Below, one piece after another: positions 11,455 to 16,616 of a stretch of 47,463 nt of DNA (position 1 is its first letter; each line of letters opens with the position of its first letter). The position numbers and the translations under genes are program-made. Source of the DNA: Candidatus Methylomirabilota bacterium (GTDB taxonomy: Bacteria > Methylomirabilota > Methylomirabilia > Rokubacteriales > CSP1-6); assembly GCA_036002485.1 (NCBI GenBank), contig DASYTI010000024.1:1-47463 (forward strand), written 5' to 3'. The notes under the pieces were generated by a model that was not told where the DNA came from, searched no databases, and worked only from the letters and a program-made list of their open reading frames with translations.

Positions 11455-12675
11455 ATGGGTCTGACGAAGCGAGTCGTAGCGCTCCTTCTCGCGCTCGGCG
11501 TGGTGACCGCGGCCGGTGTCGGCGTGGCCGCCGCCCAGACGGTGGTGGGCGTCACCGCCACCGAGATCAAGATCGGCAATACCAACCCCTACAGCGGGCC
11601 CGCCTCCGCCTACGGCACCATCGGCAAGGCCCTCGGCGCCTACTTCAAGAAGGTCAATGATGAGGGCGGGATCAACGGCCGCAAGATTAACTACATCACC
11701 TACGACGACGCCTACAGCCCGCCCAAGACCGTGGAGATGATCCGGCGGCTCGTCGAGCAGGACCAGGTCGCCTTCGTCTTCCAGACGCTGGGAACGCCGA
11801 CCAACAGCGCCATTCACAAGTACATGAACGAAAAGAAGGTGCCCCACCTCTTCGTGGCCACCGGCGCCACCAAGTGGAACGACCCCAAGACCTTCCCTTG
11901 GACCATGGGCTTCCAGCCCAACTATCAGACGGAGGGCAAGATCTACGCGGCCTATATCCTGAAGAACGTGCCCGACGCCAAGGTCGGCATCTTGTATCAG
12001 AATGACGACTACGGCAAGGATTACGTCAAGGGATTCAAGGATGGCCTGGGCGACGCCGCCAAGAAGCTCATCGTCCTCGAGCAGAGCCACGAGGTCACCG
12101 ATCCGACCATCGATTCCCAGATCGTCAACCTGAAGAACAGCGGGGCCAATGTCTTCTTCAACGTCACCATCCCGAAGTTCGCCGTGCAGGCCATCAAGAA
12201 GTCCCACGACATCGGCTGGAAGCCGCTGCATTTCCTGAACAACGTGTCGAGCTCGCTGGGCACCGTGCTCAAGCCGGCCGGGCTTGATGCCTCCAAGGGC
12301 TTGATCACCGCGCTCTATATGAAGGAGATCACCGACCCGCAGTGGAAGAACGACAAGGGCTTCCTGGAATGGATCGCGTGGATGAAGAAGTACTACCCCG
12401 AGGGGGCGCTCGACGACCAGGCCAACGGGTACGCCTACAACGTCGCCATCCTGATGACGCAGACGCTCAAGCAATGCGGCAACGACCTGTCGCGGGAGAA
12501 CATCATGCGCCAGGCGGCGAATCTCAAGAACGTGGAGCTGCCCCTGCTCCTGCCCGGTATCAAGGTCAATACGAGCGCGAGCGACTTCGCGCCCATCGAG
12601 CAGGAGCAGCTCGCCAAGTTCGACGGGGAGCGCTGGGCCGTCTTCGGCGAACTGGTAGACGCCAGCAAGAAGTAA
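11455..12675 (+). CDS. livK: Branched-chain amino acid-type ABC transporter substrate-binding protein LivK
   Basis: 406 residues. Begins with a signal peptide (KR at 5-6, hydrophobic run about 7-24, cleavage near AAAQ) and continues as a periplasmic-binding-protein type I fold: EIKIGNTNPYSGPASAYG at the N-terminal ligand cleft, then YDDAYSPPKTVEMIRRLVEQDQV and ILYQNDDYGKDY. The ATG at 11455 is preceded by GGGAGGAC at 11443-11450; the reading frame is open far upstream only as an artefact. It is last in the liv operon and followed by a strong terminator. This group (ABC transporter substrate-binding protein, Leu/Ile/Val family) may bind amides, urea or aromatic acids rather than Leu/Ile/Val. 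Confidence 0.92.
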   Translation: MGLTKRVVALLLALGVVTAAGVGVAAAQTVVGVTATEIKIGNTNPYSGPASAYGTIGKALGAYFKKVNDEGGINGRKINYITYDDAYSPPKTVEMIRRLVEQDQVAFVFQTLGTPTNSAIHKYMNEKKVPHLFVATGATKWNDPKTFPWTMGFQPNYQTEGKIYAAYILKNVPDAKVGILYQNDDYGKDYVKGFKDGLGDAAKKLIVLEQSHEVTDPTIDSQIVNLKNSGANVFFNVTIPKFAVQAIKKSHDIGWKPLHFLNNVSSSLGTVLKPAGLDASKGLITALYMKEITDPQWKNDKGFLEWIAWMKKYYPEGALDDQANGYAYNVAILMTQTLKQCGNDLSRENIMRQAANLKNVELPLLLPGIKVNTSASDFAPIEQEQLAKFDGERWAVFGELVDASKK

Positions 12676-12695
12676 GGGCGGCCTCGGAAACGACA

Positions 12696-12733
12696 ACGGC
12701 CGGCGGGTCGACCCGCCGGCCGTCTTCCTTTTC
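12696..12733 (+). terminator. Rho-independent-type terminator after livK
   Basis: A perfect 28-bp palindrome (12696-12723; two 14-bp arms, ACGGCCGGCGGGTC and its complement, meeting at the centre) followed by a pyrimidine/T-rich stretch (CTTCCTTTTCC). It lies 21 bp past the livK stop and 7 bp from the stop of the convergent gene, so it may serve both strands. Confidence 0.85.
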
Positions 12734-12739
12734 CGAGCG

Positions 12740-13141
12740 CTACTGGCCGGAACTACTGGAGTCGCGGCTGGCCGGTCGGCCCGGGGGTGCTTCCTGGACG
12801 ACGAGCTCCAGGGAGAACTGTGGCGTGACCGAGGCGGGCGCCGAGTACGGCAGCACATCGGTGCCTTCGTATCCACCGCTCGAGTTCTGCCAGCACATCT
12901 GCGGCACGCCGTCCATCGCTCCGCAGGGCAGTCCCATGGGCACCGGTCCGCGCTTCTTTTCAGCCTCGTAGGCGCCGGCAGTGACCAGCGTGCTCACCGC
13001 GCCCAGGAGAAGCTGCGCGCCGCTGATGATCAGGCTGAGCGTCATGGGATCGACCTGGGCACGGGCGGGGGCGGCCAGCGACAGAACCAGCGCCCCCGCT
13101 ACCAGCAAGCTCACGAGCCGCGAAACCACCCTCACTCTCAT
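12740..13141 (-). CDS. Secreted hypothetical protein
   Basis: 133 residues with a clear Sec signal peptide (RVRVVSR then a hydrophobic run, cleavage after APARAQ near residue 29). A second hydrophobic/glycine-rich stretch follows (about 33-52, SLIISGAQLLLGAVSTLVTAG). The mature part has two cysteines (PCGAMDGVPQMC) that could form a disulfide. I recognise no family. It is probably monocistronic; a TATAGT hexamer lies just upstream of its start. Function unknown. Confidence 0.65.
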   Translation of the reverse strand: MRVRVVSRLVSLLVAGALVLSLAAPARAQVDPMTLSLIISGAQLLLGAVSTLVTAGAYEAEKKRGPVPMGLPCGAMDGVPQMCWQNSSGGYEGTDVLPYSAPASVTPQFSLELVVQEAPPGRPASRDSSSSGQ

Positions 13142-13213
13142 GGTCGCCCTACTATACGCCCGGGGTTCGCCAAAGGAATAGTCAAAAGTGGGCGGGGTGG
13201 GCGCTCAGGTGAC

Positions 13214-13411
13214 TCAGGCGGTTCGGGGAGTGACAAAACCCCGCCCACTCAGCCGCCGCCCTGCCCTGAGGAGGGCGACGGCCAGCGCCGAGCGCAGCCC
13301 GCGCGGGTGCCTCCGCAGCGACCCCAGCAGCCGACTCCGCGCCGCGTCCGCGCGGAGCTGATCCAGCTTGCTCTCCACGAATCGTTCCAGCACATAAGTA
13401 TTCATGTCCAT
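13214..13411 (-). CDS. Small basic protein of the putative alkylation-responsive locus
   Basis: 65 residues from an ATG preceded by an excellent AGGAGG Shine-Dalgarno sequence, 17 bp after the upstream small gene, so the two form an operon. The N-terminal half (MDMNTYVLERFVESKLDQLRAD) looks like an amphipathic helix; the C-terminal half is Arg-rich with a possible helix (SALAVALLRAGRRL). Not recognised. The operon is preceded by the same bipartite promoter-like motif as the neighbouring ECF sigma gene, which suggests co-regulation. A longer overlapping frame at 13182-13418 was judged to be a shadow. Confidence 0.6.
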   Translation of the reverse strand: MDMNTYVLERFVESKLDQLRADAARSRLLGSLRRHPRGLRSALAVALLRAGRRLSGRGFVTPRTA

Positions 13412-13428
13412 GGTGCAATCCTCCTGGC

Positions 13429-13827
13429 TCAGGCCGCGAGCGGGGTGCCGGCGGTGCCGCGCGGTGACGTGATCGTGCGTGCGGCGCGCGGCCCCACGCC
13501 CGCGGGGTCGGGCGAGAGAACGATCTCCAATGGCTCGGCGGCGTGCTCTTCCGAGAAGTGCTCGCCCGTCACCCGCAGGATGGCCGCAACGGCGGCGGGT
13601 CGGTCGAGGGGCACGGCCATGGAGACTTGCCACCCGCCGCCGATCCGCTGGCGCACCGTGGGAGCGGCGGCGGCGCCCAGCTCGCGGTGGATGGCATCGG
13701 TGAGCGCGATCTGCCGGAGCCACACGCGCTCGCGCCTCTCTTGTAGATGCTCGGCAAGGACGAGCAGCCCGCTTATCGCGAGAAACGGAGCCAGCAAAAC
13801 TGTCAGAGCGGTAAACAGGGTCATCAT
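13429..13827 (-). CDS. Small membrane-anchored hypothetical protein
   Basis: 132 residues. One N-terminal membrane helix (about 3-26, LFTALTVLLAPFLAISGLLVLA), a charged stretch (EHLQERRERVWLRQI), then a soluble domain of about 85 residues and an unstructured tail (PRAARTITSPRGTAGTPLAA). Start chosen at the first of two ATGs; AAAGGAGGG lies 6-7 nt upstream. It is first in a two-gene operon whose predicted promoter (13850-13878) matches that of the ECF sigma operon. I recognise no family; by position it could be an effector of the sigma regulon. Confidence 0.65.
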   Translation of the reverse strand: MMTLFTALTVLLAPFLAISGLLVLAEHLQERRERVWLRQIALTDAIHRELGAAAAPTVRQRIGGGWQVSMAVPLDRPAAVAAILRVTGEHFSEEHAAEPLEIVLSPDPAGVGPRAARTITSPRGTAGTPLAA

Positions 13828-13849
13828 GGTCGCCCTCCTTTTCCACTCC

Positions 13850-13878
13850 TGAGACACCGGAGGCGCGCGGGTGTGAAA
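13850..13878 (-). promoter_or_regulatory. Predicted ECF-sigma promoter, copy 2 (small-gene operon)
   Basis: Read on the minus strand: TTTCACA (13878-13872), 12 bp, then CGGTGTCTCA (13859-13850). An identical pair with identical 12-bp spacing lies at 15538-15510 before the ECF sigma gene. TTTCACA to GTCT is 16 bp, a normal -35/-10 distance for ECF sigma factors. Transcription would begin near 13845, leaving a short leader that holds the Shine-Dalgarno sequence of the gene at 13827. Confidence 0.7.
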
Positions 13879-14014
13879 CGCGCGAGAAACTGTCTTTCGA
13901 GATGAGGGGCGGCCGAGCTGCCGCAGGCACGAGCGTGTGGCAGTTCGAGGTAAGCACCGACGGTGCGAGCCGAGTGCTGAGTAGATCGCGAGGGCTGAAA
14001 GGAGGCGAGAGAAG

Positions 14015-14974
14015 CTAGGAGGACAGCGGGTGGAGATCGGGCCGGCAGCTCGTGCAGGGCGTGAGGCCCACCGCTTCGGCGTGCCCGCGCGAGCCAAAGA
14101 GCGTGAGCCCGGCCAGAGACTGCCGAGACAGCGACCCACAAGTGGGCACGCAGTACTCCGAATCCGCCCCGGCCCGAACGTACATGTGGTCGCGCTCGAT
14201 CTTGCGGGCGCGGACAGCCACCGGCACCCCCTCGAGCGAGAGCAAGGTCCGCTTGAGCGAGATCTTGTTGCCGGCATATCCGGTCAGATCGCCGCCATTG
14301 CCGATCACCCGATGGCACGGGATGACGATGGGCACGGGATTGCGCCGCAGCGCCTGGGCCACCGCCCGCACTGCCGAAGGCGTGCCGATGCGTTGGGCGA
14401 TCCCGGCATAGGAGGTCACCGCGCCATACGGCAGCTCGGCCGTGGCCGTGAGCACGCGTCGCTGGAAATCGCTCCGGACCCAGCGGAGGTCGAGCGGCCA
14501 GTCGAGGCGGGTGCGTCGATGGTCCAGGTACTCGAGGAGCTCCTGGTACACCGCCTCCACACCGGCCTTGTCCTCTCGCATCTCACCCCCGGCCAGGCGG
14601 GCCAGGTGCGACGTGGCCGCGCTCTCCGACTCCAGATACTCGACGAGCGAGATCCCCAGCTCGGATCGGGCAATGAGAATCTTCCCGAGCGGCGAGGAGA
14701 AGATGCCGTAGGCGACCATACGCGCGCGGATATCGGCCAGGCGCGCCTCGAGCTCAGCGCGCGAGAGGGCCGGGTCAGCTCCCGGCAGAGGCGCGCGGCG
14801 AAGGTCTGTCACCATGCCCTCGAGCACTCGGTAACGCTCGAGCTCGTCGCGACAGTCGCGGCACACCGCGAGGTGCCGCTCGACCACGCGCGTGGCCACG
14901 GGCGCGGCCTCGCCGGCGGCCACCGCGACCAGATCGCGCTCGATCTCACGACAGGTCGGGTTCGCGGCACTCAT
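14015..14974 (-). CDS. Anti-sigma zinc finger - O6-methylguanine-DNA methyltransferase - Ada Cys4 fusion
   Basis: 319 residues with three parts. Residues 8-41 form a ZAS/zf-HC2 anti-sigma motif (Cys8, then His34-x3-Cys38-x2-Cys41). Residues about 86-255 are an O6-alkylguanine-DNA methyltransferase: DFQRRVL, LPYGAVTSYAGIA, AVRAVAQAL, and the active-site motif IPCHRVIG with acceptor Cys220. Residues about 262-316 match the N-terminal zinc domain of Ada: Cys275-x3-Cys279, 27 residues, Cys307-x2-Cys310, ending RPD. In E. coli Ada the first of these four cysteines accepts methyl groups from DNA phosphotriesters. No membrane segment or AraC domain is seen. The start overlaps the stop of the ECF sigma gene (ATGA). 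It likely both repairs alkylated DNA and holds the sigma factor. Confidence 0.88.
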   Translation of the reverse strand: MSAANPTCREIERDLVAVAAGEAAPVATRVVERHLAVCRDCRDELERYRVLEGMVTDLRRAPLPGADPALSRAELEARLADIRARMVAYGIFSSPLGKILIARSELGISLVEYLESESAATSHLARLAGGEMREDKAGVEAVYQELLEYLDHRRTRLDWPLDLRWVRSDFQRRVLTATAELPYGAVTSYAGIAQRIGTPSAVRAVAQALRRNPVPIVIPCHRVIGNGGDLTGYAGNKISLKRTLLSLEGVPVAVRARKIERDHMYVRAGADSEYCVPTCGSLSRQSLAGLTLFGSRGHAEAVGLTPCTSCRPDLHPLSS

Positions 14975-15498
14975 GGCTGGGGCTCCGTGGGGACGACCGC
15001 GAGGTCATTCAGTCCGCGCCGGATCTTCCGGAGGGCTTGAAAGACGTGGGCGCGGGCGCTTTCCGCCGAGCAGTGGAGGCTCTCGGCGATGGCATCGTAC
15101 TCGAGCTCGTGGACCTTTCGCAGGGTGAAGGCGAGGCGCTGCTTGAGGGGCAGCGCGGCCACGATCCGGTCGAGCTGGGCGCTGACCTGATTCACGATAG
15201 CCTCGCCCTCGGGCCAAGCGGGACCCCGCTCCGAGGCGCCCGCCGCGGCCACGGCCATGGCCTGCCGCCGCCGCTTCTCCGCGCGATAGTGGTTCCGACA
15301 GAGGTTGGTGGCGATGGTGAAAAGCCAGGCCCGCACGTTGGCATCCGCAGGCAGCGCTTGATAGGCCTTGTATGCTCGCACAAAGGTCTCCTGTGACAGG
15401 TCGTCGGCATCCCCGTTGCGCGAGGTGGCGCGGACGAGATACCGGTGTATCTCGGCGTGATGCGCCGCCACGACCGCCTCGAAGGGATCCCCCGTCAT
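14971..15498 (-). CDS. ECF-type RNA polymerase sigma factor
   Basis: 175 residues. Region 2 (about 13-80) has the typical EIHRYLVRATSRNGDADDLSQETFVRAYKAY and WLFTIATNLCRNHYR segments; region 4 (about 108-162) has LPLKQRLAFTLRKVHELEYDAIAESLHCSAESARAHVFQALRKIR, a helix-turn-helix for -35 recognition. The next gene overlaps by 4 bp and encodes an anti-sigma zinc finger fused to an alkylation-repair protein. I favour the ATG at 15498: the alternative in-frame ATG at 15510 lies inside the predicted -10 element of the gene's own promoter, and a near-leaderless transcript would reach only 15498. If the promoter is wrong, 15510 (179 residues) is the start. Confidence 0.88.
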   Translation of the reverse strand: MTGDPFEAVVAAHHAEIHRYLVRATSRNGDADDLSQETFVRAYKAYQALPADANVRAWLFTIATNLCRNHYRAEKRRRQAMAVAAAGASERGPAWPEGEAIVNQVSAQLDRIVAALPLKQRLAFTLRKVHELEYDAIAESLHCSAESARAHVFQALRKIRRGLNDLAVVPTEPQP

Positions 15499-15509
15499 AC
15501 TCTTGACCA

Positions 15510-15538
15510 TGAGACACCGTAGCCCGCCAATTGTGAAA
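15510..15538 (-). promoter_or_regulatory. Predicted autoregulated ECF-sigma promoter, copy 1
   Basis: Minus-strand TTTCACA (15538-15532), 12-bp spacer, CGGTGTCTCA (15519-15510); the same two blocks and spacing occur at 13878-13850. The flanking GCGAGA (plus strand) is also shared, one base offset. A sigma factor transcribing its own operon is usual for ECF systems. The predicted start of transcription, near 15505, gives an almost leaderless mRNA for the ATG at 15498. Confidence 0.7.
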
Positions 15539-15782: not shown

Positions 15783-16616
15783 ATGGCCATGGCCGCCCAG
15801 GACCCGCGCCCGACCACTCTCATGACCTGGCGGCTTCACCGCGAGGTCGTGCTGTTGGCCGGCTGGGGCCGAGCCATCCTGCTCCAGCTCGCCCATCCGC
15901 TGGTGGCCCAGGGAGTGGCCGACCACAGCGGCTTCGCCACGCAACCGCGAGGACACGTGAAGCGGCTCAAACGCACGCTTCGAGCCATGCTCGCTCTGAC
16001 CTTTGGCACGCCCCAAGAGGCCGAGACGGCCGCGGCGGGGATCAACCGCATCCACGATCGAGTGCACGGCCGCCTCGCCGAGGCCGCCGGCGCCTTCGCG
16101 CCCGGCACTGCATACAGCGCTCACGATCCCGCGCTGCTCGCCTGGGTCCACGCGACCCTGATCGACAGCTTTCTCCTCACCTACGAGCGTTTCGTCGCGC
16201 CGTTGACGCCGGCCGAGCGTGATCGGTACTGCCTCGAAGCCCTCAGCGGCGGACCCCTCCTGGGTATCCCGCCGGGGGTCTTGCCGGGAAGCGCCGCCGA
16301 GCTCTCGTCGTACATGGAGCGAATGGCGGCCAGCGGCGAGATTGCCGTCACCAACACCGCCCGGGGACTCGCGCGCCACGTGCTCGCGCCGCGCGGGTCG
16401 TGGCCGCTGCGCCCGTTCCTGGCGCTGGCTCGGCTCCCCGCCGTGGGCTTGCTGCCGCCGGCGATTCGCCACGCCTACGGCTTCGGGTGGACGGCGGGCC
16501 AGGAACGGCGGCTGGCCATGCTGAGCGCCATCGTGCGCCACGCCTTGCCGATCGCCTCGCCCGTCCTGCGCCACTGGCCCGCGGCGCGCCACGCGGAGAC
16601 TCGGACGGCGGGCTAG
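15783..16616 (+). CDS. Oxygenase MpaB / DUF2236 family protein
   Basis: 277 residues. Typical family features are the N-terminal LHREVVLLAGWGRAILLQLAHPLVAQGVADHS segment, the HDPALLAWVHATLIDSFLLTYERFV segment with its conserved His, and the C-terminal GWTAGQERRLAML. The family includes latex-clearing protein (a heme b oxygenase cleaving polyisoprene) and the fungal MpaB oxygenase; the reaction here is unknown. A second ATG six bases downstream is an alternative start. The gene stands alone, following MITE-like element B. Confidence 0.85.
   Translation: MAMAAQDPRPTTLMTWRLHREVVLLAGWGRAILLQLAHPLVAQGVADHSGFATQPRGHVKRLKRTLRAMLALTFGTPQEAETAAAGINRIHDRVHGRLAEAAGAFAPGTAYSAHDPALLAWVHATLIDSFLLTYERFVAPLTPAERDRYCLEALSGGPLLGIPPGVLPGSAAELSSYMERMAASGEIAVTNTARGLARHVLAPRGSWPLRPFLALARLPAVGLLPPAIRHAYGFGWTAGQERRLAMLSAIVRHALPIASPVLRHWPAARHAETRTAG

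Follow-up and report, generated by a model that had tools for sequence, protein, structure and literature searches.

The window considered here, meaning the whole stretch of DNA that was analysed, is 47,463 nucleotides long and comes from a 4.45-Mb genome. Its close relatives belong to Candidatus Rokuibacteriota/Methylomirabilota, five of them having been reached by a contig search with the fusion protein described below. On the minus strand lies a gene for an ECF sigma factor, followed directly by a gene whose product joins a predicted zinc-finger anti-sigma region, an O6-alkylguanine-DNA methyltransferase (MGMT) and an Ada-like Cys4 domain (Table 1). The two genes share a 4-bp ATGA overlap in the window, and we infer that they are co-transcribed. 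A possible alternative in-frame start for the sigma factor lies 12 bases further upstream, at an ATG at position 15510. Both reading frames and their overlap were re-read from the sequence and are as given in the preliminary description of this DNA, and the residues quoted there are all present: C8, H34, C38 and C41 in the finger, C220 within IPCHRV, and C275, C279, C307 and C310 near the C-terminus.

The surroundings contain further genes. Beyond the fusion gene comes a gene for a small putative membrane protein, and the 65-aa reading frame that follows it is probably part of the same operon; reading frames of a similar kind, beginning MDMN or MGMN, come after the membrane-protein gene at two other loci as well (L065 and L099). 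On the other side, a divergent gene for an MPAB/Lcp-type oxygenase (PF09995; window positions 15783-16616) adjoins the sigma gene.

Table 1. Features of the sigma factor locus, with positions in the window
Feature	Position	Strand	Description	Basis or context
ECF sigma factor gene	14971..15498	-	175 aa from ATG (MTGDPFEAVV)	Pfam, orthologues
Anti-sigma/MGMT/Ada-Cys4 fusion gene	14015..14974	-	319 aa	Pfam, PDB profile, structure comparison, orthologues
Anti-sigma region (predicted)	14720..14974	-	Residues 1-85, four predicted helices	C8, H34, C38, C41 invariant
O6-alkylguanine-DNA methyltransferase region	14225..14719	-	Residues 86-250, acceptor C220	
Ada-like Cys4 domain	14018..14197	-	Residues 260-319, candidate acceptor C275	
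Predicted sigma-dependent autoregulatory promoter	15513..15538	-	TTTCACAATTGGCGGGCTACGGTGTC	Motif conserved in 27 of 28 loci
Second motif copy	13853..13878	-	TTTCACACCCGCGCGCCTCCGGTGTC	Just beyond fusion gene, ahead of next gene downstream
Small putative membrane protein gene	13429..13827	-	132 aa, MMTLFTALTVLL...	Behind second motif; recurrent regulon member
Small reading frame	13214..13411	-	65 aa, MDMNTYVLERF...	After membrane-protein gene

Domains of the two proteins

The sigma protein matches Sigma70_r2 (E 5.8e-16) and Sigma70_r4_2 (E 1.7e-12) in Pfam, both above cut-off, and thus has the sigma2 and sigma4 regions without sigma3 that define an ECF factor. In the fusion protein, zf-HC2 is matched at residues 8-42 (29.2 bits against a cut-off of 22.2, E 9.7e-7), and the finger has the H-x3-C-x2-C form with an upstream Cys/His ligand that is characteristic of ZAS proteins. 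NCBIfam adds weak matches to the ChrR and RsrA anti-sigma models, and the PDB profile match of this region is likewise weak (E 0.04-0.5). The methyltransferase follows, with Methyltransf_1N at residues 88-163 (30.1 bits, cut-off 21) and DNA_binding_1 at residues 169-250 (104 bits, cut-off 27, E 3.9e-30). At the C-terminus, Ada_Zn_binding is matched at residues 274-313 with 17.7 bits, below the cut-off of 23 and over profile positions 27-65 only; a profile of the C-terminus built from 26 orthologues matches E. coli N-Ada (1adn) in the PDB with E 7.5e-6, placing C275 opposite C38 of Ada and aligning the other three cysteines as well.

Comparisons of the predicted structure point in the same direction, with the reservation that the model was built from six sequences and has a pLDDT of 66, a low confidence that is worst at 215-263, the acceptor region. 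The methyltransferase region resembles Ogt structures with a Z of about 12. The anti-sigma region, a small helical domain, matches RslA (3hug) with a modest Z of 7.0 over 55 residues, the next structures being RsiW, MucA and ChrR, and the Cys4 domain matches methylated N-Ada (1u8b) with an equally modest Z of 6.6. Because these last two scores are modest, the structure comparisons support, but do not prove, both of the small-domain assignments.

Taken with the Pfam and profile results, these comparisons uphold the domain identities originally proposed (ECF, ZAS, MGMT and Ada-like Cys4). The order of the domains is permuted relative to Ada and an AraC domain is absent, also as first described: Pfam finds no AraC-type domain in the fusion protein, which falls short of the NCBIfam cut-off for Ada (PRK15435; 104.9 bits against 345). 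All sequence criteria make the protein an MGMT, and its motif and gene context place it among the ZAS-type anti-sigma factors.

Conservation of the pair in Methylomirabilota

The preliminary description had let its proposal depend on whether the pairing occurs in related genomes, and indeed it does. In a sample of 95 genomes of the phylum Methylomirabilota, a profile of the fusion protein (threshold E 1e-40) finds matches in 49; about half of the 95 have a full-length orthologue, and most of these belong to the window's own family. Wherever both genes are readable, which is the case at 28 loci after exclusion of one genome's duplicates in two collections, the sigma gene lies directly upstream of the fusion gene (28/28). 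The junction is a 4-bp overlap at 26 of these loci and a 4-bp gap at the other two. The pairs are 53-89% identical, and since all 28 keep both the layout and the nine residues quoted above, the pairing is not due to chance.

The same nine residues are invariant across 29-31 homologues, C220 together with the whole of P219-R222. The MGMT catalytic set is intact as well, with Y189, R203, N212, P219-R222, Y233 and E248 invariant in 28 sequences; we take Y189, R203, N212, Y233 and E248 to correspond to Tyr114, Arg128, Asn137, Tyr158 and Glu172 of human MGMT. Given that finger and catalytic residues are both invariant, selection has maintained the repair chemistry along with the finger.

Two of the 49 profile matches lack the finger (G052 and G057). 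These MGMT-Cys4 proteins were considered as distant relatives of the system and set aside, as no ECF gene adjoins them. Loci L164 and L165, from class-level relatives, show an MGMT that ends in an Ada-like Cys4 domain and has no ECF neighbour, an arrangement that amounts to a permuted Ada without a regulator. A plasmid search with the fusion protein matched other taxa over the MGMT part only (plus the Cys4 tail in one record), and revealed no zinc-finger version outside Methylomirabilota.

A shared promoter motif and its predicted regulon

A common sequence, TTTCAC-N14-GG(T/G)GTC-(T/A)(T/C)A, precedes the sigma gene at 27 of the 28 loci, always with the 14-base spacer and usually 10-22 bases ahead of the start codon. 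Because the -10-like box ends a mere 10-15 bases ahead of the start codon at most loci, the transcript probably has little or no leader. A tandem pair of motifs lies ahead of one sigma gene (locus L027; L092 minus strand, positions 1377 and 1501).

How specific is this motif? In about 40 genomes there are about 50 genome-wide matches with GGTGTC and 25 with GGGGTC, whereas the reversed pattern gives about 4 and 2, and a further 40 genomes agree with this result. The mean number of sites is 3.2 in 45 genomes that have the system and 0.7 in 28 that do not (Mann-Whitney p 3e-11, uncorrected for relatedness, several of the system-negative genomes being incomplete or fragmented); in one genome counted as lacking the system (G082), the sigma gene sits at a contig end. 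From its position and co-occurrence, we predict that TTTCAC-N14-GG(T/G)GTC is the sequence recognised by the sigma factor. The promoter motif and the gene set behind it are new here.

Of the genes just behind the 126 distinct sites, those at 99 sites belong to seven recurrent families, namely DUF2652 (25), the sigma operon itself (23), the small membrane protein (20), ClbS/DUF1706-type DinB proteins (20), other DinB proteins (5), Usp (3) and SRPBCC (3). Ogt is the second gene in seven of the ClbS/DUF1706 operons, including one in the window's own genome (contig C162). ClbS protects against colibactin, a DNA-alkylating agent, and both ClbS and the DinB-type thiol transferases are in keeping with a response to electrophiles or alkylation. 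Against the alkylation reading, AlkA and AlkB are absent from the regulon predicted from the 126 sites, and its two commonest members apart from the sigma operon, DUF2652 and the small membrane protein, are not known to be connected with alkylation. The homologue of the small membrane protein that was examined has no Pfam match. DUF2652, as the commonest single motif target, offers a lead to the function of an uncharacterised family.

A second circuit and actinobacterial pairs

The same genome carries another ECF gene that overlaps an MGMT-Cys4 gene, here without a zinc finger (G000:C109, about 12184-14161; locus L103). The MGMT-Cys4 protein of this second system is found at 16 loci (L103-L118), at 15 of which a sigma gene is recognisable upstream, and in six of its genomes a gene for Oxygenase-NA (PF09859) comes next. 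System 2 has a conserved upstream motif of its own, TTCC(A/G)CCC-N14-17-CGTATA, which also precedes MFS and EamA transporter genes. EamA transporters that are 54% identical lie behind a site of the window's system (system 1) in G034 and behind a system 2 site in G020 (L192 and L220), which suggests that the two systems have overlapping duties.

Similar pairs, with an ECF gene followed by an MGMT-Ada-Cys4 gene, occur in replicons of Rubrobacter, Nonomuraea and Streptomyces (L133, L134 and L135), with a 4-bp gene overlap in Nonomuraea. In the Streptomyces pair the Cys4 domain is intact and the MGMT core looks degenerate. The Ada_Zn_binding cut-off, which the window's fusion protein misses, is exceeded by the system 2 and actinobacterial homologues. 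A common origin of systems 1 and 2 was considered and is not supported, the sigma factors lying far apart in trees; the MGMT of system 1 is placed nearer to plain Ogt, with weak support. The existence of the second pair and of the actinobacterial pairs suggests that coupling an ECF factor to an MGMT-Cys4 protein has been repeatedly useful.

Proposed mechanism and alternatives

That the fusion protein is the anti-sigma factor of the adjoining sigma factor, as was predicted at the outset, and that the pair is autoregulated are both well supported by what can be read from sequence, the former by gene order at 28 loci and by the zf-HC2 finger. In uncultured Rokubacteria the sigma factor is always encoded with a finger-repair fusion, so it is probably the repair enzyme that signals alkylation damage to the transcription machinery. 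We favour a self-regulating switch that responds to alkylation (electrophile) stress, with a suicide repair protein as the anti-sigma factor, a reading to which we assign a probability of roughly 0.6. At rest, the N-terminal zinc domain would hold the sigma factor. C220 of the MGMT domain would then accept an alkyl group from O6-alkylguanine, or C275 of the Ada-like domain a methyl group, or both, and the altered body would either disturb helix 4, which adjoins it in the anti-sigma domain, or mark the protein for destruction, so that the sigma factor is freed. Free sigma factor would read the TTTCAC-N14-GG(T/G)GTC promoters, its own included, yielding more sigma factor and repair protein along with ClbS/DinB proteins, Ogt, DUF2652 and others. 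Once the damage is gone, newly made fusion protein would stay unalkylated and recapture the sigma factor.

How could alkylation of the repair domains be felt by the sigma factor? Class I anti-sigma factors use helix 4 to cover the face of sigma2 that binds RNA polymerase (PMC7406223). In the predicted structure of the fusion protein, helix 4 (residues 68-85) is contiguous with the first MGMT strand, which starts at residue 86, and there would therefore be only a short path from the alkylated body to the sigma contact. The proposed release of the sigma factor by alkyl transfer fits all of the data, and the invariance of the anti-sigma site, of both acceptor sites and of the AGT catalytic set counts in its favour. 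We regard it as an even bet that the anti-sigma factor is a stoichiometric suicide repair enzyme, so that every lesion repaired takes one inhibitor molecule out of action for good, and that Ada-like sensing has been rewired to sigma factors more than once, as a zinc-finger type in Rokubacteria and a finger-less type in Rokubacteria and Actinobacteria.

Among the readings considered, alkylation-triggered release is the most likely and redox sensing by the finger comes next, although we consider the latter unlikely. Here, oxidation or direct alkylation of C8, C38 or C41 by an electrophile would free the sigma factor, as in RsrA or RslA, and the repair domains would be cargo made whenever the sigma factor is active. 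Redox sensors are common among the soluble class I anti-sigma factors of the zinc type (PMC7406223), the C8-H34-C38-C41 set is invariant with three cysteines that would suffice for such a role, the weak NCBIfam matches are to ChrR and RsrA, and the DinB-type, Usp and DUF2652 proteins of the regulon are not specific to alkylation. What this explanation leaves unaccounted for is why the repair domains are fused to the finger in every orthologue instead of being encoded separately, and why a second MGMT pair exists that has no finger at all.

Two other explanations keep the anti-sigma and repair domains but assign them different parts. On binding to lesion DNA, the MGMT domain might pull the anti-sigma region off the sigma factor, the chemistry serving repair only. 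The match of the domain to DNA-bound Ogt structures would suit such a model, but signalling by binding alone needs neither the two acceptor cysteines nor the catalytic set, all of which are invariant, though repair would need them; we judge it improbable. Methylated Ada is an activator that contacts sigma (PMC4437013), and the fusion protein might by analogy be a co-activator or chaperone of the sigma factor, like methylated Ada with RNA polymerase. The modest N-terminal match to solved anti-sigma factors leaves some room for this idea, but zf-HC2 scores above its cut-off and the structural matches (RslA, RsiW, MucA and ChrR) are all anti-sigma factors, making it very improbable indeed.

Ada, which activates transcription by binding DNA, underlies the best-known of the inducible responses to alkylation. 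Alkylation-triggered release, if true, would represent a second logic, in which damage chemistry is read by consuming an anti-sigma factor, with an intrinsic count of lesions and an automatic shut-off. It would also offer a concrete, testable mechanism for ECF122-type sigma factors, and possible parts for alkylation biosensors. The analysis further provides a predicted promoter and target list for a phylum with little cultured genetics.

Comparison with known systems

One precedent is ECF122. A 2022 review reports that ECF122 sigma genes adjoin genes for 6-O-methylguanine DNA methyltransferase, without an anti-sigma factor and with the mechanism unknown (PMC8999054). The window shares the placement of an ECF gene beside an MGMT gene, whereas its MGMT partner carries a zinc anti-sigma finger. 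Going by the review's description, ECF122 seems to have more in common with system 2 and the actinobacterial pairs. The original statement that no system of this exact design had been described thus holds for the fusion of finger and MGMT but not for the neighbourhood of MGMT and ECF genes: in the literature searched, which included few subscription papers, the ECF122 remark was the only one found, and no MGMT or Ada anti-sigma fusion was described.

Like ChrR, RslA and RsrA, the fusion protein has an N-terminal H-x3-C-x2-C zinc finger and is encoded just behind its own ECF gene, and like ChrR it has another domain fused C-terminally to the finger. The fused body is a cupin in ChrR and a membrane part in RslA, whereas here it is a repair methyltransferase with an Ada-like domain. 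With Ogt and MGMT proteins it has in common the full catalytic set, including PCHR, and the structural similarity noted above, but those are stand-alone repair enzymes with neither finger nor Cys4 tail. E. coli Ada likewise combines an MGMT domain with a Cys4 methyl-acceptor-like domain, and in both cases the repair protein is thought to double as the sensor. In the fusion protein, however, MGMT precedes a Cys4 domain that is shortened at its N-terminus, the AraC domain is absent, and the output would run through an ECF sigma factor rather than through direct binding to promoters.
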